DNA from: Thermodesulfomicrobium sp. WS
GTDB taxonomy: Bacteria; Desulfobacterota; Desulfovibrionia; Desulfovibrionales; Desulfomicrobiaceae
Reading direction: 5' to 3'
Assembly: GCF_027925145.1 (NCBI RefSeq)
Contig: NZ_AP027130.1
Location: forward strand, 372,001 to 436,000
DNA length: 64,000 nt
Shown here: positions 13,479 to 23,240 of the stretch, piece by piece
Layout: each line of letters begins with the position of its first letter
Numbering within the stretch: position 1 is the stretch's first letter
Notes under the pieces: model-generated
The model's input: the letters and a program-made list of their open reading frames with translations, nothing else
Database searches by the model: none
What the model was told of the DNA's origin: nothing
Program-made: the position numbers and the translations under genes

Positions 13479-15431
13479 ATGCTGTGGTGGCTTGTGGCAA
13501 TGATGATTGCTGGGATGGCGCTCTCGGCGGCAGCCGGCCGGGGGCGTTTGGGCGCGGTGCTCGGCCCGGCGGTGATGTTCGCGGTCTGTCTGGCGGGTTT
13601 GGGCTTCGCCCTGGGACCGGACGGCCGCTGGGTACTGCCGTTTGCGCCGCCTTTGGGTTCTGGAGCCCTGCGCCTGGACGCGGTGGCACGTTTTTTTCTG
13701 CTTCCCCTCTTTGGGCTGGGGGCCATGGTGGCCATCTACGGCGTGGGCTATTTGCAGCATGCGGTGGGCCGCCGTCATTTGGGCGTCCATTGGGCCGTGG
13801 TGCTGCTTCTGCTGCTCGGGATGACCGTGGTGTTTCTGGCCGACGATGGCTTTGTGTTCTTGGTGGGCTGGGAACTCATGTCCGTGGCCCCGTTTTTTCT
13901 CGTGGCCTTTGACGATCACGATGCCTCGGTGCGTGCCGCGGCCTGGGAGTATTTGGCCGCAGCGCACTTGGGAGGCGCGGCGCTCGTGGCGGGCCTCGCC
14001 CTGGCCGCGGCGTCGGGCGGATGGTCCTTTGACGCCATGCGCGCGGCCCTGCCGGGAAGCGCCCTGGCGCTGCCGGTATTCGGGCTCATGGTACTCGGCG
14101 GCGGGGCCAAGGCCGGTCTCGTGCCGCTGCACGTATGGCTGCCGGAAGCGCACCCGGCCGCGCCGAGTCATGTGTCCGCCCTCATGTCCGGTCTTATGGT
14201 GAATACCGGGATCTATGCTGTGGTGCGCGCCCTGGACGTGGTGGGCATGCCTGGGGCCGGCGCGGGCGTCCTCTTGGTGCTGGCGGGCTTGGTGAGCGCG
14301 GTGTTCGGGGCCATGCAGGCCCTGGTGCAGGGGAATGCCAAACGGCTGCTTGCCTTCAGCACGGTGGAGAACATGGGCTTGGTGTTCATGGCGGTGGGTG
14401 TCGGTATCGTGGGATATGCCTGCGGCCTGGTGGTCACCGCCTGGCTGGGTCTGGCGGCGGCCTTGATGCATCTCTTGCACCATTCCTTGTTCAAGGGGCT
14501 CCTGTTTATGGGGGCCGGTGCGGTGCTCGAAGCCACAGGAACGGTGGAGCTTCGCGCCCTGGGCGGGATCGCCCAGCGCATGCCGCAGGTGAGTCGGTGC
14601 ATGGCCGTAGGCGTGGCCACGGTGTCGGGGCTTCCGCCCTTTTGTGGGCTGGTGGGCGAGGTGCTGCTCTTCGCCGCCCTGGCTACGGGCATGGCGGCGT
14701 CTGACCCCGGGTTGCGCGGCGTCATGCTCGCCGGATTCGTGGGGCTGGCCTTGGTGAGCGGCGTGGTGCTTGCCGGCATGACCCGGCTGTTCGGGATCGC
14801 CTTTTTGGGCGCCCCAAGGTCGCCGCAGGCCGCGGAGGCCAAAGAGCCGGGAAGGCTCATGCGCCTGCCCATGATGGTGCTGGCGGCCGCCTGTTTGGCC
14901 GCGGCAGTGGCGGCCCCGGTGGCCTTGGGGCTCGCCCTGCCTGCCGTGGGCGTGGTCTTGGGTGCGGTCCCGCGGGAGCCGCTTGCCCCGTTTGTGGCGG
15001 GAGTGGCGCAGATTGCCACCATCGGTGTAGTGGTCGCCGTCGCGGTGGTCGTGGTGGCGGGGGTGCGTCGATTGCTTCCCGGCTGGGCGGATGCCCGACG
15101 GTTTCGTACTTGGGACTGCGGCTATGCGGCCCCGTCGGTGCGTATGCAGTATTCCGCCTTTGGCTTTGCCCAGCCCCTGTGGCGGGCCATCGGTGGAACG
15201 AGCGTTGCCCGGGTCACGGTCGAAAAGCCTGTTGGATTCTTTCCGGCGCATGCCTGGGCGCGCGTGGAGCCTGCGGATCCCCTGCGCACGGCGTGGGAGA
15301 GGCTTTTTGGCGGGGTGCGCAGCATGTGTGACGCCCTCAAGTGGCTGCAGCACGGCCGCATCCAGCTCTATGTCTTCACCATGGTGGCGGTGTTGGGGAT
15401 CCTCATCGTATGGCGGCTTTGGGGGGAGTAG
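13479..15431 (+). CDS. hyfB: Ehr complex antiporter-like membrane subunit (HyfB/NuoL family)
   Basis: 650-residue polytopic membrane protein of the proton-conducting NuoL/M/N-Mrp family, first gene of a six-gene operon. Its N-terminal half is nearly all hydrophobic segments; KAGLVPLHVWLPEAHPAAPS (residues 208-227) holds the conserved lysine and loop of the antiporter-like fold, and a Leu/His-rich LMHLLHHSLFKGLLFMGAG follows. Homologues in hydrogenase-4 and formate hydrogenlyase are thought to move protons or Na+. The ATG at 13479 follows AAGGGGAGG. It is abutted by hyfC with no gap. Confidence 0.9.
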   Translation: MLWWLVAMMIAGMALSAAAGRGRLGAVLGPAVMFAVCLAGLGFALGPDGRWVLPFAPPLGSGALRLDAVARFFLLPLFGLGAMVAIYGVGYLQHAVGRRHLGVHWAVVLLLLLGMTVVFLADDGFVFLVGWELMSVAPFFLVAFDDHDASVRAAAWEYLAAAHLGGAALVAGLALAAASGGWSFDAMRAALPGSALALPVFGLMVLGGGAKAGLVPLHVWLPEAHPAAPSHVSALMSGLMVNTGIYAVVRALDVVGMPGAGAGVLLVLAGLVSAVFGAMQALVQGNAKRLLAFSTVENMGLVFMAVGVGIVGYACGLVVTAWLGLAAALMHLLHHSLFKGLLFMGAGAVLEATGTVELRALGGIAQRMPQVSRCMAVGVATVSGLPPFCGLVGEVLLFAALATGMAASDPGLRGVMLAGFVGLALVSGVVLAGMTRLFGIAFLGAPRSPQAAEAKEPGRLMRLPMMVLAAACLAAAVAAPVALGLALPAVGVVLGAVPREPLAPFVAGVAQIATIGVVVAVAVVVVAGVRRLLPGWADARRFRTWDCGYAAPSVRMQYSAFGFAQPLWRAIGGTSVARVTVEKPVGFFPAHAWARVEPADPLRTAWERLFGGVRSMCDALKWLQHGRIQLYVFTMVAVLGILIVWRLWGE

Positions 15432-16328
15432 ATGGAAAGTCTGTTCTGGGGGGTGGGCGTGGTGTGCGCCCCGCTCCTTTTGGGGATCATCAATCGGGTG
15501 AAGGCGCTGTGGGCGGGCCGGCGTGGTCGGCCCATGCTCCAGACCTATTTTGATATGGCCAAATTACTGCGCAAGGGCACTGTGGTGAGCGAGACGACCT
15601 CATGGGTGTTTCGCTTGGGGCCGGTATGCGCCGTGGTGGGGCCGGCGGTGGCCATGCTCCTCGTCCCCTTTGCGGGAAGACCGGGCCTGTGGTCCTTCCC
15701 CTTGGATTTCGTGGTGCTCGCGTACGTGCTCGCCCTGCCGCGTCTGGGCACCATGCTGGCCGCTCTCGACGTAGGCTCCAGCTTTGAAGGCATGGGGGCG
15801 AGCCGGGAGGCCGCCTTTGGGGCCCTGGCGGAACCCGCTCTGCTGGCGGCGCTGCTGGCCGCTGCAGGTCAGGGGGGCTTGCGGCTGGCCGACGGCGTGG
15901 CGGCGGTGGATGTGCTGCACGGCGGCGGCGTGCTGCTGGGGATTGCGGTGTTTCTCCTGCTGCTGGTGGAGAACGCCCGCATGCCGGTGGACGACCCCAA
16001 CACCCATCTGGAACTCACCATGATCCACGAGGTCATGGTCCTGGACCATAGCGGGCCGGAGTTGGCCGCCATCACCTATGGCGCGGCGCTCAAGCTGTGG
16101 GTGTTCGCCGCGCTCCTCGTGGCCCTGGTCTTGCCGCTGCACGCCGTGTCGTTGCCGTGGGCCGTGGTTGCCCACGTGACCGGGATCTTGGTGGTGGCCG
16201 CGGCCGTGGGTGTGGTGGAGTCCTTGAGCGCCCGCCTCCCCATGCCGCGGGTGCCGGCCTTCATCTTGAGCGGCGCGGCCTGCGGCTTGGTGGTGCTGTT
16301 TGCCGTGATCTGGGGAGGACGGCTATGA
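15432..16328 (+). CDS. hyfC: Ehr complex membrane subunit (HyfC/NuoH family)
   Basis: 298-residue membrane protein of the NuoH/HycD/HyfC family, which anchors the hydrophilic arm and forms the entry to the ion path. Signature pieces are RGRPMLQTYFDMAKLLRKG near residue 35, GSSFEGMGASREA near residue 115 and VENARMPVDDPNTHLELTM near residue 180, which holds the conserved acidic residues. The ATG sits immediately after the hyfB stop, with GGGGGGAG as binding site. It overlaps hyfE by four bases (ATGA). Confidence 0.92.
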   Translation: MESLFWGVGVVCAPLLLGIINRVKALWAGRRGRPMLQTYFDMAKLLRKGTVVSETTSWVFRLGPVCAVVGPAVAMLLVPFAGRPGLWSFPLDFVVLAYVLALPRLGTMLAALDVGSSFEGMGASREAAFGALAEPALLAALLAAAGQGGLRLADGVAAVDVLHGGGVLLGIAVFLLLLVENARMPVDDPNTHLELTMIHEVMVLDHSGPELAAITYGAALKLWVFAALLVALVLPLHAVSLPWAVVAHVTGILVVAAAVGVVESLSARLPMPRVPAFILSGAACGLVVLFAVIWGGRL

Positions 16329-16960
16329 GCGTACAGACCCTCTCGTTGGTATGGTGGGCGGTGATCTTGAGCGACCTCGTGCTCTTGGGCGCAGGGCGGC
16401 TGCGGCATCTCATCCTCCTGTCGGCGGCCCATGGGGTGCTTTTGGGCGTCGTGGTGGCAGGCATGAACCCTGCAGGGGAAGGGGTGCTGGTAGCCGCGGC
16501 CATGGCGGCCCTCAAGGCCGGGGTGTTCCCGTGGCTTTTGTGGCGCACCATGCGCCGCATCGGTTCGAGCGAGATCGTGGAGCCCTATATGGGCCTGGGC
16601 ACGAGTGTGGTGCTGGGCCTGGTGGGCCTGGGGCTGCTCTTTGGGTTGGAGTCCCGGGTGGTGCTGCCGGTGGCGGCTCCGCCGCTCTTGCTCCCAGCGG
16701 CCCTGCTCACGGTCCTTGCCGGCATCATTCTCATCGTGCTGCGCCATAAGGCCCTTACCCAGGTCATTGGGTATCTCACCATGGAAAACGGAATCTTTCT
16801 TTTGGGCGTGCCCTTGATCGGCCACGACGCCATGTGGATCGAATTCCTCATCCTCCTGGATTTGTTCGTGGCCATTTTTGTCATGGGGATCGCCATCCAC
16901 CACATCAGCCGGACCTTTGACTCCATCGACGTGGACCGGTTCTGCACCTTGCGAGATTAG
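16325..16960 (+). CDS. hyfE: Ehr complex membrane subunit (HyfE family)
   Basis: 211-residue hydrophobic protein with six or seven membrane segments, matching hydrogenase-4 component E, whose N-terminal half resembles NuoK. VLRHKALTQVIGYLTMENGI near residues 138-157 is characteristic. The start codon overlaps the hyfC stop. HyfE is absent from Ech-type hydrogenases and from formate hydrogenlyase-1, so its presence puts this operon with the hydrogenase-4/Ehr branch. Confidence 0.88.
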   Translation: MSVQTLSLVWWAVILSDLVLLGAGRLRHLILLSAAHGVLLGVVVAGMNPAGEGVLVAAAMAALKAGVFPWLLWRTMRRIGSSEIVEPYMGLGTSVVLGLVGLGLLFGLESRVVLPVAAPPLLLPAALLTVLAGIILIVLRHKALTQVIGYLTMENGIFLLGVPLIGHDAMWIEFLILLDLFVAIFVMGIAIHHISRTFDSIDVDRFCTLRD

Positions 16961-16962
16961 CC

Positions 16963-18432
16963 ATGCCCATCATTCCCTTTGCCCTTGTCTTTCTGCCCGT
17001 TGGGGGCGGTATCCTCGCCCTGCTGGTGGCGCGTGATGCTCTGCGCCGGGGGCTTTTGGTGGTCACTGCCGTGGCCCATGCGGCCATGGTGGCGGCGGGT
17101 GCCGCCGCCCCTACGGTCCCGCCAGAGGCTATGCTCGGCCTGGATGCCCCGGGACTTGTGTTTTTGGGGTTGGCGAGCATCCTCTTTGTGGCGGCCAGCA
17201 TCTATGCTGTCGGGTACTTGCGCGCCGAGACCAAGGATGAGCGCGCCGATTTCGTCGCTGGGGTGATGTTCCGCAACGCCCCGGAGCGGATTTTCACTGC
17301 CTGCCTGCTGTTTTTCCTGGCATCCATGAGCTTGGTGTGTCTTGCGCGCCATTTGGGCCTGTTGTGGGTGGGGGTGGAATGCACCACCCTGGCCAGCGCA
17401 CCCCTCATCTATTTCCACCGCCATCAGCGCTCGTTGGAAGCCACCTGGAAGTACCTGCTCATCTGTTCCGTGGGCATCGCCTTTGCCCTCATGGGACTTA
17501 TGCTGGTGAGCTATGCTGCGGCCGGCAGCTCCTCTTCGTTGCACCTCGATGCCCTGATGGCGCACGCCACGGCCATGCGGCCCCGCTGGCTGCAGGTGGC
17601 CTTTGTGTTCTTGCTGGTCGGTTATGGATGCAAGATGGGACTTGCGCCCATGCACCATTGGCTGCCCGACGCCCATAGCGAGGCACCGTCTTTGGTGTCG
17701 GCCCTGCTTTCCGGGGCCCTGCTCAACTGCGCCTTTTTGGGCATCATTCGGGGGCATCAGCTCTGTGTGGCCGCTGGGCTGGGCGAGTTTTCCGGATCCA
17801 TGCTCGTGCTCTTGGGCCTGCTCTCGCTGGGGACCGCTGCCGTGTTCGTGGTGGGGCAGGGGGATTTCAAACGCATGCTTGCCTACTCCAGCGTGGAGCA
17901 CATGGGGCTGCTTGCCCTGGCCTTGGGCGCGGGCGGCGCTCCGGCGGCCTCCGGCATGCTGCATGCCGTGAACCATTCCCTCACCAAGGCAGCGCTCTTT
18001 CTCTTGGCGGGGAACATCTTGGCCCTGTACCACACCAAGTCCTCCTATGACACCAGCGGCCTGGTGCGGACCATCCCGGTGACGGGCGTGCTGTGGGTGG
18101 CGGGGTTTCTTTCCATCACCGGGACGCCCCCGTTTGGGACCTTCGTGAGCGAGCTCGGCATCGTCCAGGGGCTTTTGGCCCAGGGGCGCTTCGGGGTGGC
18201 GGCCCTCACCGTGCTCTGCCTGGCGGTGATCTTTGTGGGCATGTCCATGGCCGTGGCGCGGATGATCCAGGGCCCGCGGCCGCGCTATCTGCGCGGCACG
18301 CCTCGTGAAGAGTGGACCAGCGTGGGCCCGTCGGCCATATTGTTGGCGCTGGTCTTGGCCCTGGGCGTGGTGCAGCCGCACGGTTTGCGCCAGCTCTTAG
18401 GCGAAGCCCTGCGCGTGGCAGGCGGGATGTAG
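16963..18432 (+). CDS. hyfF: Ehr complex antiporter-like membrane subunit (HyfF family)
   Basis: 489-residue second antiporter-like subunit. VGYGCKMGLAPMHHWLPDAH (residues 219-238) carries the conserved lysine region of the NuoL/M/N fold, and MLHAVNHSLTKAALFLLAGN the second lysine region near residue 335. It begins two bases after hyfE. A complex with two antiporter-like subunits (HyfB and HyfF) and no HyfD resembles the minimal Ehr layout known from family surveys. Ion specificity cannot be read from the sequence. Confidence 0.9.
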   Translation: MPIIPFALVFLPVGGGILALLVARDALRRGLLVVTAVAHAAMVAAGAAAPTVPPEAMLGLDAPGLVFLGLASILFVAASIYAVGYLRAETKDERADFVAGVMFRNAPERIFTACLLFFLASMSLVCLARHLGLLWVGVECTTLASAPLIYFHRHQRSLEATWKYLLICSVGIAFALMGLMLVSYAAAGSSSSLHLDALMAHATAMRPRWLQVAFVFLLVGYGCKMGLAPMHHWLPDAHSEAPSLVSALLSGALLNCAFLGIIRGHQLCVAAGLGEFSGSMLVLLGLLSLGTAAVFVVGQGDFKRMLAYSSVEHMGLLALALGAGGAPAASGMLHAVNHSLTKAALFLLAGNILALYHTKSSYDTSGLVRTIPVTGVLWVAGFLSITGTPPFGTFVSELGIVQGLLAQGRFGVAALTVLCLAVIFVGMSMAVARMIQGPRPRYLRGTPREEWTSVGPSAILLALVLALGVVQPHGLRQLLGEALRVAGGM

Positions 18433-18440
18433 GAGGATTT

Positions 18441-19919
18441 ATGCTGGCATGGACCCAGGAACAGACGATCGCCGTAAACGAGATTTCCGTGCTGTCGCCC
18501 GAGGCGTTTCGCGCCGCGGTGGCGCAGGCCGTGGAGCAGGGAGCGCGGCTTGTCGCCTTGTTTGCTGCCCCCAAGGGCGCGGTCAAGCGGGTGTATGCGG
18601 TCTTGGCGTGGGATGGACGCCACCTGCTGGAGACCGTGGCCATGGAGCCGTCTCTCGGGTATCCGAGTCTGACCCCCGTATGCCCGCAGGCCCATTGGTT
18701 CGAGCGGGAACTCTTTGAAATTCATGGGATTACCCCGCACAATCACCCGTGGCTCAAGCCCATCCGCTTTCATGAGCGCCAAGACGGCGGCGAGCGGCCG
18801 GCCCCGTGCGTGACCGAATATTTCACCGTGGACGGACCAGAGATCCACGAAGTGGCCGTAGGTCCGGTGCATGCCGGCATCATCGAGCCCGGGCATTTCC
18901 GCTTCCAATGTCTGGGCGAGACCGTGATGCACCTGGAGATCTCCTTGGGCTACCAGCACCGGGGTATCGAGGCCCAGCTGGCGGGCGGACCGGATCGGCG
19001 TACCATCCATTTCATGGAGACAGCGGCCGGGGACACCACCATCGGACATACCTGGACGCATTGCGCCCTGGTGGAGGCCTTGGCTGGCGTGACCGTGCCC
19101 GCCCGGGCACAGGCCATTCGCGCCCTGGCCTTGGAGTTGGAGCGCTTGGCCAATCACACCGGGGACGTGGGGGCGCTGGCCTTGGATATGGGATTTTTGC
19201 CGACGTCGTCCTTTTGCGGGCGGCTGCGCGGTGATTTTCTCAACATGACGGCGCTTTTGTGCGGCAACCGCTTTGGCCGGGGCCTGGTGCGGCCCGGAGG
19301 CGTGGCCTTCGATGTGGAGCCCGAGCGAACGCAGGAACTCCTGCGCCGCTTGGCGGCCACGGTACGGGACGTGCGCGGGGCGGTGCGGCTCTTTGTGGAG
19401 TCTTCCATGGCCCGGAACCGCCTGGAGGGCGTGGGGGCGCTCTCCACGGGTGAGGCCGTGGCCTTGGGGTTGGTGGGGCCTGCCGCCCGTGCCTGCGGCG
19501 TGGTGCGCGACGATCGCTGGGCCCATCCCCAGCCCGGGGTGCCCCATCCCGAGGGCGCGCCGGCCACGGCCGAAGGCGGGGACCTCCTTGCCCGGGCCAT
19601 GGTGCGCGTGCGCGAGATCGAGGCCAGCGCCGCCATGGTGGAGCAATTGCTGCGGCGGCTGCCGGAGGGGCCGATCGCATGTCCTGTCCCACCGCTTGCG
19701 CCGCGGCGGCTGGCGGCCTGCCTGGTGGAGGCCTGGCGGGGAGAGGTCTGTCATGTGGCGGCCACGGACGAGAGCGGTCGCTTTGCCTGGTATAAAATGG
19801 TGGACCCGTCCTTCCACAACTGGTTTGGACTCGCCATGGTGCTGCGGGGGACGGAGATCTCTGATTTTCCCTTGTGTAACAAAAGTTTCAATCTGTCCTA
19901 TTGCGGACACGACCTGTAG
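18441..19919 (+). CDS. hyfG: Ehr complex large subunit (HyfG/NuoCD-like) lacking the Ni-Fe cysteines
   Basis: 492-residue fusion of a NuoC-like N-terminal domain (WFERELFEIHGI, residues 86-97; LKPIRF) and a NuoD/hydrogenase-large-subunit domain. In true [NiFe] hydrogenases two CxxC motifs bind the metal. At the first position this protein reads GDTTIGHTWTHC (197-208), leaving Asp198 and Ile201 where cysteines are expected by hand alignment. The C-terminus reads SFNLSYCGHDL; its Cys488 is one residue off register and no DPCxxC exists. The protein ends right after this motif with no cleavable extension for a maturation protease. Hydrogenase activity is therefore unlikely. The ATG follows AGGAGGATTT. 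Confidence 0.9.
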   Translation: MLAWTQEQTIAVNEISVLSPEAFRAAVAQAVEQGARLVALFAAPKGAVKRVYAVLAWDGRHLLETVAMEPSLGYPSLTPVCPQAHWFERELFEIHGITPHNHPWLKPIRFHERQDGGERPAPCVTEYFTVDGPEIHEVAVGPVHAGIIEPGHFRFQCLGETVMHLEISLGYQHRGIEAQLAGGPDRRTIHFMETAAGDTTIGHTWTHCALVEALAGVTVPARAQAIRALALELERLANHTGDVGALALDMGFLPTSSFCGRLRGDFLNMTALLCGNRFGRGLVRPGGVAFDVEPERTQELLRRLAATVRDVRGAVRLFVESSMARNRLEGVGALSTGEAVALGLVGPAARACGVVRDDRWAHPQPGVPHPEGAPATAEGGDLLARAMVRVREIEASAAMVEQLLRRLPEGPIACPVPPLAPRRLAACLVEAWRGEVCHVAATDESGRFAWYKMVDPSFHNWFGLAMVLRGTEISDFPLCNKSFNLSYCGHDL

Positions 19920-19929
19920 GAGCGCAAGC

Positions 19930-20691
19930 ATGCTGCGAGTCCTTGCCGAGCGCTGGCACCAGAAAATGCGCACCATTGATTTTCCGCGCACCCATCCTCC
20001 CCTGTCCGATCGCTATCAGGGCCGGCCGCTGCTTGCGCCCGAGCGCTGCCCCGGCGCAGGGTGCGAGGCATGCACCGCGGTGTGCCCCACGGGCGCGGTG
20101 GGGGTGGATGGCCAGGGGCTGTTTCTCGATTTGGGGCGCTGCCTTTTCTGCGGGGCGTGTGTGCGCGCGTGTCCGCACGGGGCGGTGGCCTTTGGACAGG
20201 ATTTCCGCATGGCGGCCCGTCGGCGCGAGGACCTGATCCTGCGCGGGGCGTCGATGCCGGAGATCACCCCCTTGGAGGAAGAACGGCGCCGGCTCTTTGC
20301 CCGCTCCCTGCGGCTACGGCAGGTGAGCGCCGGGGGGTGCATGGCCTGTGAGGCGGATCTCAACGTGCTCACCACCGTGGTCTTCGATCTGGGGCGGTTT
20401 GGCATCGATTTCGTGGCCTCGCCGCGCCATGGCGACGGTGTGGCGGTCACTGGGCCGGTGACCCGCAACATGCGCGACGCGCTGCTGTGGACCCACGCCG
20501 CAAGCCCGGATCCGCGCGTGAGCGTGGCCGTGGGGGCGTGCGCCATCTCTGGAGGCATCTATGCAGGGCTGCCGGAGACATCGAGCGGGGCGACGGAGCT
20601 TCTGCCCGTAGACCTCTTCATCCCCGGCTGCCCGCCCCATCCGCTCACCATCTTGCATGGGCTTTTGGGGCTCATCGGCCGGCTTTCCTAG
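19930..20691 (+). CDS. hyfI: Ehr complex ferredoxin/small-subunit fusion (HyfH-HyfI/NuoB-like)
   Basis: 253 residues joining a two-cluster ferredoxin domain to a NuoB-like small subunit. The ferredoxin part has Cys40-x4-Cys45-x2-Cys48-x3-Cys52, one residue longer than usual in the first gap, and a standard CLFCGACVRAC (Cys71-Cys81). The small-subunit part keeps all four ligands of the proximal [4Fe-4S] cluster: GGCMAC (Cys137, Cys140), Cys204 in GACAISGG and Cys234 in PGCPPHP. Electron transfer to the HyfG interface therefore looks intact although HyfG has no metal site. Hydrogenase-4 encodes these parts as separate HyfH and HyfI. Confidence 0.88.
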   Translation: MLRVLAERWHQKMRTIDFPRTHPPLSDRYQGRPLLAPERCPGAGCEACTAVCPTGAVGVDGQGLFLDLGRCLFCGACVRACPHGAVAFGQDFRMAARRREDLILRGASMPEITPLEEERRRLFARSLRLRQVSAGGCMACEADLNVLTTVVFDLGRFGIDFVASPRHGDGVAVTGPVTRNMRDALLWTHAASPDPRVSVAVGACAISGGIYAGLPETSSGATELLPVDLFIPGCPPHPLTILHGLLGLIGRLS

Positions 20692-21674
20692 GCCTTGGTC
20701 CGGGTCACCAGGCGGCGGTAGAGGTCGAGGAACTCCACGAAGTCTTCGTGGCGGCCGCCGGCATCCGGGTGGAGGACCTTGGCCCGGCGCCGGAAGAGGC
20801 GGATGAGCTCGGCACGGCCCAGGGCCTGCAGCTTCGGCCATGGCATGCCAAAAAGGACCTCGGCCCGGGTGGCGTCCACCGGTCTGCTGGGCCGCCGGGG
20901 GCGCGGCCGCCGGAAACTGCCCATGAAGCCTTCCACGATGCGCGCCCAGGGGTCTGCGGCGGGAAACTGGAAGTCGTAGTGGTAGCAGGCGTAGCGGCGA
21001 AGATAGGGGTGGATGCCCGAGGCCGGCCGCACGATCCCCTGCCAGAAGGCGTCGTCCGCGTGGATCTGGCAAAGGGCCCGCAGGAAGGCGGCGTCCACGG
21101 CCTCGGGGTCGAGGGCCTCAGGGGCATGGCGGGCGGCAAGGCAGGCAAACTGGCCTTGCAGGTTGAAGGCGGCAAAGGTGTAGGCGCGCAGCTCCTCGGG
21201 CCGCAGGGTGCGCTCCATGCGCCAAAATTCCTGCTCCAGCTCATCGCGGCTTTTTCCCACAAGACGCAGGAAAAGCTTGGGATGCACCAGGTGGATGGCG
21301 CCAAGGTTGGTCTCGCCAGTGCGTAAAAACGCCAGCCGCCGTTTGTCGAAAGGGTGCAGCCCTGCCACCTGGGCTTCTTCTTCCGGCAAGAGGCGGCGGC
21401 GCACCCAAGGCCGACGGTGTCCTTGATCTTCGAGGGCGGGAATGAAGGGCGCGAAGGCCGCTTCCAGGGCATCGAGCAGGGCGTCGTCGAGACAGCCGGC
21501 GGCAGCGAAGACCGCATCGAGCAGCTGCGGCCGAAAGGCGCCGTCTTCGTACCAGGCACAGGGGTTCGGGCCGAGGTCGAGGATGGTCTGGCTGAGGAGC
21601 ATCCCTGCGGTGGAAACGGTGCGGCGCAGCGCGTAGCGTGCCCCTTGAGGAGTCAGGATTCGAGCAATGTACAT
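20688..21674 (-). CDS. J-domain (DnaJ-like) protein
   Basis: 328 residues. The C-terminal 45 residues form a J-domain-like segment, with LIRLFRRRAKVLHPDAGG holding His302-Pro-Asp, the motif that stimulates DnaK ATPase. The first 270 residues match no domain I can name; they are rich in Arg, Leu and aromatic residues. GGAGG precedes the ATG at 21674. The stop overlaps that of hyfI on the other strand by four bases. It probably acts as a substrate-specific DnaK co-chaperone; its client is unknown. Confidence 0.75.
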   Translation of the reverse strand: MYIARILTPQGARYALRRTVSTAGMLLSQTILDLGPNPCAWYEDGAFRPQLLDAVFAAAGCLDDALLDALEAAFAPFIPALEDQGHRRPWVRRRLLPEEEAQVAGLHPFDKRRLAFLRTGETNLGAIHLVHPKLFLRLVGKSRDELEQEFWRMERTLRPEELRAYTFAAFNLQGQFACLAARHAPEALDPEAVDAAFLRALCQIHADDAFWQGIVRPASGIHPYLRRYACYHYDFQFPAADPWARIVEGFMGSFRRPRPRRPSRPVDATRAEVLFGMPWPKLQALGRAELIRLFRRRAKVLHPDAGGRHEDFVEFLDLYRRLVTRTKA

Positions 21675-21878
21675 GGCGTCCTCCATGGGCATCCATAATG
21701 CCTGCAGGGCCTGCGGAAAAGGCCTTGCGCGGCTTGGAGGCGCTCTATCGCGAAGATGCCCTCGGTGCCGCCCGCACAAGGCATTGGGGGAACGCGGCGC
21801 CTGCGCACGAGGGAGAAGGTGGTTAGAGCGGCGCCACCTCCCAGCCTACGATCTGACGTTTTACCGTGCTGAACTCCA

Positions 21879-22094
21879 CTACAGACCAGTGAAGAACGCA
21901 CGATTGCCGGCAAAGGCCTCGGCCAGGGTATCGAGGAAGAGGGATTTGCCGAAGCGCCGCGGCCGGGAGAGGAAGTAGTACTTCCCGCTTTCGGCAAGCT
22001 TTGCCACAAAAGGCGTCTTGTCCACGTAGTAATATCCTTCGCGCCGGATCTCGGCAAAGGTCTGGATGCCGATGGGCAGTTTCTTGCGTTCCAT
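21879..22094 (-). pseudogene. Truncated AAA-ATPase-like (PD-(D/E)XK-associated) gene remnant
   Basis: 71 residues matching only the N-terminus of the AAA-ATPase_like/DUF1703 family, whose full members have about 500-580 residues. FAEIRREGYYYVDKTPFVA and the Walker A-like FLSRPRRFGKSLFLDTLAEA are intact, then the frame stops after FFTGL. No continuation of the family was recognised downstream in any minus frame. It keeps a GGAGG binding site. These genes often occur in many copies and decay readily. Confidence 0.75.
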
Positions 22095-22271
22095 GGCAGC
22101 CTCCGTGCTGGAGCGGGGAGACATTGTGTGTAGCCACCACTGGTTGGGAAGTCAAAATGGGAAGCCGAGCGCCCCTGGGACAGACTCCCCCCCAGTGTCC
22201 ATCGGCGCATGGGTCCCCTCTAGACAGCGCCCAGCATGCAAGGGCATGGAGGAGCATCCTTGGAGGCTCGT

Positions 22272-23240
22272 ATGCGCGCACATCAGCTCGTGGCCCAGTA
22301 CTATCCGGATTTTCCCCGCCGCCGTGTGGGGCGTGTGGTCACCGACACCACGGATTTCATGGGTATTGGTTATGGGGACATCATGGCCCTTGGAGACCTG
22401 CATTATCTCGTTCTTGGGGATGAAAAAGAACGGAGTTTCGGGATTGAGGATCCTAAATATTGGGTCAAGCGCTGTCTCGAGCTGGAAACAGGTGTGCGAA
22501 AAATCGTCAAATTGGTCTTTTATGAGAGTTTTCCTGTCTCCATAGGAGAGCTTTCCATTCAGTGTTTTCGCAGTCCGCGCAAAGAGGCGCGAGTATTGAA
22601 TCTGGTTCATGGAGATTCCCGTTTCATGCAGGGCCGGACCGTGCTCGATAGTGCAGGCAACGAGGTGCGCATTCTCGACATTGTGCGCGGAGAGCTCTTT
22701 GCGCACCGGGTGCACCGGAACCCTTTGGATCACCGGCGCTATCTCTTTGAGGTCCTTCCAGATCTTCTCGAACGCTTCATGGGGGCGTGTGCGGCCATTG
22801 CGATGCTCCACCAGCATGGGGAAAACCATGGCGATATCCGCCGGGATCATCTGTGGGTGGAGAGCGAAACCGGAGGGCTGGTATGGATCGATTTCGACTA
22901 CACCTACGAGTTCCATGAAAATCCCTTTGGCCTCGATATCTTTGGATTAGGCAATATCCTTCTCTATCTGTGCGGCAAAGGTTTTGTCACCCGTCTTGCC
23001 ATGACGGAAGACGAGTTTTCCGGAGATCGGAATGCCGTGCTGCATCCTGAAGACTTTTCCATATTATTTCGGCATCGACTTTGTAATCTTCGTAAGGTGT
23101 ATCCGTATATTCCCAAGGAGCTCAACGATGTCCTCCTGCATTTTGCAGTTCAGTCAGAGATTTTTTATTTTCATGTATCGGAATTTCTTGAGGATTTGCA
23201 GCGTGGACTTTGGGCGTTGCGCCAAGGAGACTGGTCATGA
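22272..23240 (+). CDS. Atypical Ser/Thr protein kinase-like protein
   Basis: 322 residues with a recognisable but divergent protein-kinase plan. IVKLVF offers a beta-3 Lys80, Glu105 fits helix C, HGD (186-188) in HGDIRRDHLWV matches the catalytic loop, DFD (207-209) replaces DFG, and Asp222 in LDIFGLG fits the helix-F aspartate. Phosphotransfer is therefore plausible, but no canonical glycine loop is evident. An antibiotic- or sugar-kinase-like activity is an alternative. The ATG at 22272 follows GGAGGCTCGT. Base composition is clearly lower in GC than its neighbours, suggesting a different history. The stop overlaps the start of the UspA gene (ATGA). Confidence 0.7.
   Translation: MRAHQLVAQYYPDFPRRRVGRVVTDTTDFMGIGYGDIMALGDLHYLVLGDEKERSFGIEDPKYWVKRCLELETGVRKIVKLVFYESFPVSIGELSIQCFRSPRKEARVLNLVHGDSRFMQGRTVLDSAGNEVRILDIVRGELFAHRVHRNPLDHRRYLFEVLPDLLERFMGACAAIAMLHQHGENHGDIRRDHLWVESETGGLVWIDFDYTYEFHENPFGLDIFGLGNILLYLCGKGFVTRLAMTEDEFSGDRNAVLHPEDFSILFRHRLCNLRKVYPYIPKELNDVLLHFAVQSEIFYFHVSEFLEDLQRGLWALRQGDWS

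Follow-up and report, generated by a model that had tools for sequence, protein, structure and literature searches.

The Ehr complex of Thermodesulfomicrobium sp. WS, a hydrogenase relative with an apparently rebuilt pocket in place of the NiFe site

Which reaction can be carried out by a relative of the energy-converting hydrogenases in which the ligands of the NiFe site are gone? This question is raised by a gene cluster of Thermodesulfomicrobium sp. WS in a stretch of 64,000 nucleotides (positions 372001-436000 of the single 2.36 Mb contig NZ_AP027130.1), which is referred to here as the window. Six contiguous genes on the plus strand (13479-20691), spaced between a 4-nt overlap and a 10-nt gap, encode in this order homologues of HyfB, HyfC, HyfE, HyfF and HyfG and a fused HyfH-HyfI protein, as assigned by Pfam and NCBIfam (Table 1). 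A first-pass annotation made from the nucleotide sequence had described six tightly packed Hyf genes with an H-I fusion and had assigned them to the Ech-hydrogenase-related (Ehr) complexes without a NiFe site; coordinates, gene order and domain hits agree with the description, and motif, phylogeny and synteny uphold the assignment. The operon thus belongs to an already known family. Ehr has been reported in Geobacter (PMC7894505; PMC8691401, in a passage citing Coppi), where the locus GSU0739-0745 has no NiFe ligands (PMC7894505; PMC13194489, in a passage citing Coppi 2005), in Sulfobacillus (PMC4378227), Margulisbacteria/Saganbacteria (PMC6349859), CPR bacteria (PMC7304191) and Nitrospira (PMC10284858). 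Its reaction is given as unknown or conjectural in PMC7894505, PMC8691401, PMC4378227, PMC6349859, PMC7304191 and PMC10284858. In the present analysis we conclude that the operon very probably encodes a functional Ehr complex that is not a hydrogenase.

The large subunit EhrL is built from a NuoC-like N-terminus and a NuoD/hydrogenase core. In an alignment with HycE, HyfG and NuoCD from E. coli and with the genome's own Ech, the columns of HycE Cys241 and Cys244 are occupied by Ala196 and Thr199 and those of Cys531 and Cys534 by Ser486 and Gly489. None of the four Ni/Fe-binding cysteines of group 4 [NiFe] hydrogenases is therefore present in EhrL. The losses of the first CxxC and of the terminal DPCxxC had both been recognized in the first-pass annotation, which placed the former at Asp198 and Ile201, two residues away from the correct columns. 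It had also pointed to the lack of a cleavable C-terminus. The lack itself is real but of no diagnostic value, since the large subunit of the genuine Ech of this genome likewise ends without an extension, at DPCISCTER; the missing maturation extension was accordingly dropped as proof of an absent NiFe site. NuoD ends at the same alignment column as EhrL. A concealed metal site formed by Cys208 and Cys488, which the annotation had named as speaking against its own assignment, was rejected, as Cys208 is found in only 51 of the 80 Ehr proteins compared below, with Cys488 conserved in all 80.

Several of the HycE residues listed in PMC9474812 are retained in EhrL, with Glu193, Arg478, His284, Glu437 and Arg395 corresponding to Glu149, Arg433, His239, Glu392 and Arg350, respectively. 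The column of HycE Ser283 holds Asn238, as in complex I. HycE Asp529, the canopy aspartate, is described as strictly conserved among both hydrogenases and complex I (PMC9474812); EhrL has Asn484 in its place, and Asn is found at this position in 79 of 80 Ehr proteins. HycE (7z0s_E) is the nearest relative of EhrL in the PDB and also the best fold match (TM 0.84) of an AlphaFold2 model of EhrL with a pLDDT of 88.6.

Has this pocket decayed, or has it been remodelled and kept? An alignment-based scan of 84,980 species genomes gave at least 555 confirmed relatives, of which the best 80 were studied; conservation was determined for 80 sequences, namely the window protein and 79 relatives. The best 80 include members of the Thermodesulfobacteriota, Myxococcota, Verrucomicrobiota, Planctomycetota, Lentisphaerae, Omnitrophota, Elusimicrobiota, Spirochaetota, Acidobacteriota, Chloroflexota, Nitrospinota, Fibrobacterota and other phyla. 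Glu149, Cys157, Gly197, Asp198, Asn480, Lys481, Tyr487, Cys488, Gly489, Asp491 and Leu492 are unchanged in all 80 proteins, the C-terminal tail has the form CNKSFNLSYCG(H/F)DL in 75, and position 479 is Cys in 77 and Asn in three. Altogether, 118 EhrL positions are at least 97% conserved. Pairwise omega values between close relatives lie between 0.06 and 0.16 in 11 of 12 pairs and amount to 0.31 in the remaining one. In the phylogenetic tree, the Ehr proteins, including that of Geobacter (L064), form a clade with 100/100 support, which is sister to HycE/HyfG (95/94) and apart from Nuo. The stem of this clade measures 2.35 changes per site versus 0.3-0.7 for the tips; such a long stem with a shallow crown fits a single episode of change followed by strong constraint. 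Judged from these alignments, the EhrL pocket is rebuilt rather than decayed.

The Geobacter complexes have the identical subunit set and share the invariant pocket, and EhrL of Geobacter argillaceus is 62% identical over the core. Closer to the host, orthologues of 52-79% identity occur throughout its family, and one further family of the order has them as well, so that the operon is not a chance assembly. A second, distant HycE-like large subunit without the cysteines was found within this order, though in a different family (L033, 917-2278). It ends in FGLSVAENDR, a tail wholly unlike that of Ehr, and sits on a long branch of unsure placement.

The small subunit EhrS combines a HyfH part carrying two 4Fe-4S clusters with a NuoB-like HyfI part carrying the proximal 4Fe-4S cluster. 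All 12 cluster cysteines are present in the window, as claimed in the earlier annotation, and each is kept in 69-77 of 77 sequences. Compared with HycG and NuoB from E. coli and with the genome's own EchC, the proximal cluster has CxxC spacing of the hydrogenase type and four cysteines; neither the tandem CC at cluster N2 of complex I nor a three-Cys proximal cluster is found. As for the membrane part, E132, K211, K288, H331, H335, K339 and E394 of the HyfB-like subunit are conserved in 67-68 of 68 sequences and K163, K224, K303, E312 and K342 of the HyfF-like subunit in 79 of 79, and the HyfC-like anchor has 54 positions with at least 95% conservation among 77 sequences. The HyfB-like subunit carries a C-terminal ND3-like fusion with a W-x-C-G-Y motif, which is also present in HycC/HyfB. 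The antiporter lysines and glutamates expected of a complex I-type pump are thus invariant or nearly so, and they lend indirect support to the ion pump suggested in the first-pass annotation.

Where might the electrons come from? The operon itself contains no HyfA, HyfD, HyfJ or maturation genes. E. coli HypA-E, HycI, HycH, HycB, HyfA, NuoE, NuoF and NuoG and four molybdenum-enzyme frames from the window's genome were used as tblastn queries and gave no match in the 80 loci (about 10 kb around Ehr), the window or the preceding 28 kb; the HyfD query of the same search matched in 81 of 83 stretches. The earlier statement that hyp and maturation protease genes are missing nearby accordingly applies to the window and 28 kb upstream. 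Like Hyf/Hyc, Ehr has homologous subunits and a NuoC-like N-terminal fusion; in contrast to these complexes it has the H and I subunits fused and lacks HyfD, and the formate hydrogenlyase partners HycB/HyfA and FdhF are absent from the 80 loci and the window. The complex appears to depend on a soluble electron carrier, because genes for HycB, NuoE/F/G, formate dehydrogenase and Hyp proteins are all missing near the loci. As the 80 loci contain no further gene for electron input, ferredoxin would be the simplest donor for an arm with three clusters.

With respect to the acceptor, EhrL resembles NuoCD in its fold (TM about 0.8) and in Asn/His at canopy positions 238/239, whereas Ile148 and Gly197 align with the quinone-binding His and Tyr of complex I. 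Menaquinone markers were surveyed in 50 Ehr genomes, counting an MqnC match above noise or a MenD match over the cut-off. Both markers were absent from 23 genomes, which include that of the isolate Rectinema subterraneum and those of every sampled member of the Elusimicrobia and Spirochaetes. When 23 positions of the pocket are compared, 17 of the marker-less genomes are identical to the window and six show one to three changes, only at 196, 199, 203 or 238; among genomes with a marker, 23 of 27 are identical. Asp198, Glu149 and the tail do not differ between any of the genomes compared, with or without a marker. The UbiA family was uninformative as a quinone marker, with matches in 46 of 50 genomes and in every control genome. 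The survey argues against a quinone as the common Ehr substrate but falls short of proof, and the quinone-linked activity suggested in the first-pass annotation is weakened.

Taken together, we tentatively propose, as a plausible reading, that Ehr is an ion pump which draws its electrons from ferredoxin and passes them to a non-H2, probably non-quinone acceptor. Reduced ferredoxin (or flavodoxin) would deliver electrons to EhrS, from where they would pass through the three 4Fe-4S clusters to the reshaped EhrL cavity. A small acceptor, not H+ and probably not a quinone, would be reduced there, the candidates for catalytic residues being Glu149, Asp198, Cys488, Tyr487 and Lys481, and the reaction would drive translocation of H+ or Na+ through the HyfB- and HyfF-like subunits; in some organisms the direction may be reversed. 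Several points weigh against this proposal. The complex is known here from its genes, so that donor and acceptor are both deduced, and ferredoxin was chosen for want of another candidate. The last 13 residues of EhrL, including Cys488, are of low confidence in the single-subunit AlphaFold2 model, for which reason the tail was placed in the cavity via the HycE alignment. Finally, marker absence refers to two gene families of the menaquinone pathway alone, and most of the genomes are drafts whose completeness is not reported.

As an alternative, Ehr could be a ferredoxin:menaquinone oxidoreductase, a minimal form of complex I whose quinone site is constructed in another way. In favour of this, the host has menaquinone (futalosine) genes (PF02621, MqnC), DsrA and, within the window, fumarate reductase subunits, and a search of the genome with EhrL matched only Ech and Ehr, from which we conclude that a complex I is lacking; the canopy residue Asn238 is also of the complex I type (PMC9474812). 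We nevertheless regard this activity as unlikely in view of Ile148/Gly197, of Asn484 in place of the canopy Asp (PMC9474812), of the CxxC rather than tandem cysteines at the proximal cluster and of the same pocket being shared by the 23 of 50 genomes that lack MqnC and MenD. Similarly, a ferredoxin-dependent reduction of sulfur chains or disulfides by Cys488 (and Cys479) adjacent to the proximal cluster, in a role like that of archaeal MBS or of ferredoxin:thioredoxin reductase, appears improbable. Both cysteines are highly conserved and belong to the tail that in HycE lines the NiFe cavity, and the Pyrococcus sulfane sulfur reductase MBS, a NiFe-less hydrogenase relative that also has three 4Fe-4S clusters, provides a precedent by reducing polysulfide at its proximal cluster (PMC7684303). 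However, MBS catalysis requires the three-Cys cluster, in place of which EhrS has four cysteines with hydrogenase spacing, and MBS retains two of the NiFe cysteines, whereas Ehr has none at these columns. Moreover, Cys479 is replaced by Asn in three of 80 proteins, and no sulfur-metabolism genes recur near Ehr loci. MBS also differs in its Mrp-type membrane module, which this operon lacks.

A formate-dependent system in which Ehr accepts the electrons (FDH-Ehr) has been proposed for Riflemargulisbacteria (PMC6349859). Proteomics found Geobacter sulfurreducens Ehr subunits to be more abundant with formate than with hydrogen (PMC7894505), and several molybdopterin oxidoreductases are encoded in the window's genome; since relatives of formate dehydrogenase, HycB and HyfA are missing from the window and from the roughly 10 kb around Ehr in the 80 loci, we consider such a system very unlikely. 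Another view, a dead hydrogenase under relaxed selection, was stated for Geobacter strain KN400, where Ehr was called nonfunctional and expected to drift and where two subunits acquired missense mutations in long-term cultures (PMC13194489). Although the NiFe ligands are indeed gone, the omega values, the 118 positions conserved across many phyla and the conserved operon partners make this explanation extremely improbable; the conservation seen in the alignments contradicts a nonfunctional, drifting Ehr.

Does the genomic neighbourhood provide a further clue to the function of Ehr? A protein of about 236 amino acids with an HTH_17 and a PTS EIIA domain (PF00359, E=1.8e-25) is encoded in 44 of 80 loci; where more than 1.5 kb is available upstream of the operon, 40 of 60 loci have it. 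The gene usually lies 20-450 nt 5' of the first Ehr gene on the same strand, and this arrangement spans at least nine phyla. In four sampled Desulfomicrobium-type genomes it is located within or adjoining the Ehr operon. Geobacter loci often have it nearby together with an extra antiporter subunit; the window has neither, and its genome encodes only a plain EIIA-Ntr distant from the operon. A description of a link between Ehr and EIIA was not found in the open-access literature. No other neighbour recurs in more than 11 of the 80 loci. A SulP-type transporter gene is present near the operon in L044, L057, L058, L063 and L069 (Planctomycetota, Verrucomicrobiota and Deltaproteobacteria). It is conceivable, if somewhat speculative, that Ehr represents a separate kind of energy-converting enzyme, common to bacteria with and without quinones and tied in many lineages to PTS phosphorylation via a dedicated HTH-EIIA protein. 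It would be an ion pump supplied by ferredoxin, its acceptor would be neither a proton nor a quinone, and catalysis would take place in the rebuilt pocket with Asp198, Cys488, Tyr487, Lys481, Glu149 and the free C-terminus.

Table 1. Features of the Ehr operon (window coordinates) and examples of the HTH-EIIA gene at other loci (locus coordinates)
Feature	Position	Strand	Evidence
EhrA/HyfB-like antiporter subunit, 650 aa	13479..15431	+	PF00361 (Proton_antipo_M) E=1.6e-46; hydrogenase 4 subunit B E=3e-142
HyfC/NuoH-like membrane anchor, 298 aa	15432..16328	+	PF00146 (NADHdh) E=1.8e-23
HyfE-like membrane subunit, 211 aa	16325..16960	+	NCBIfam hydrogenase 4 membrane subunit E=8e-15
HyfF/NuoN-like antiporter subunit, 489 aa	16963..18432	+	PF00361 (Proton_antipo_M) E=2.9e-49; hydrogenase 4 subunit F E=1e-106
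EhrL/HyfG-like large subunit, 492 aa	18441..19919	+	PF00329 (Complex1_30kDa) + PF00346 (Complex1_49kDa)
EhrS small subunit, fused HyfH + HyfI, 253 aa	19930..20691	+	PF01058 (Oxidored_q6) + Fer4
Ala196-Gly197-Asp198-Thr199 in place of hydrogenase first CGxC	19026..19037	+	alignment
EhrL C-terminal tail CNKSFNLSYCGHDL in place of DPCxxCxxR	19875..19916	+	alignment
HTH-EIIA gene, examples (set L039-L116)	L046 1972-2697; L080 4264-4962; L068 2391-3023		

Elsewhere in the host genome, a six-gene Ech operon with intact NiFe motifs in its large subunit is located about 30 kb upstream of Ehr (L005 7595-12915; G000:C1 351594-356914). Two more hydrogenase large subunits are encoded in the genome, one of which is probably of the NiFeSe type because of an in-frame TGA. 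The genome has no match to the Complex1_51K domain but does encode Rnf, since RnfD is present. Among 61 relatives, the co-occurrence of Rnf and Ehr showed no clear replacement pattern. A cysteine synthase gene is divergent from the Ehr operon, and another species of the genus has the same arrangement. Convergent with ehrS and overlapping it by 4 nt is a gene on the minus strand (20688-21779) for a 363-aa protein without Pfam or NCBIfam match, whose C-terminus reads like a J-domain (KVLHPDAGG). It is followed by an 81-aa fragment (21879-22124, minus strand), probably a remnant, that matches the first 65 of 201 positions of AAA-ATPase_like (PF09820), and by a gene on the plus strand (22236-23240) for a 334-aa protein without family match, in which HGDIRRDH...WIDFDY looks kinase-like; the latter gene overlaps the longest frame of a universal stress protein gene.

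In comparison with what has been published on the family, the invariant tail, the measured constraint, the HTH-EIIA neighbour and the occurrence of Ehr in genomes that lack menaquinone markers appear to be new. Ehr is found in hundreds of bacterial genomes from many phyla, including uncultured lineages, and for two decades reports have given its function as unknown. The pocket, the marker-less organisms and the HTH-EIIA neighbour should be helpful in defining testable mutants, substrates and regulators for Ehr. If the complex indeed is a coupling site independent of quinones and hydrogen, it would represent a branch of anaerobic energy metabolism that is absent from current models.

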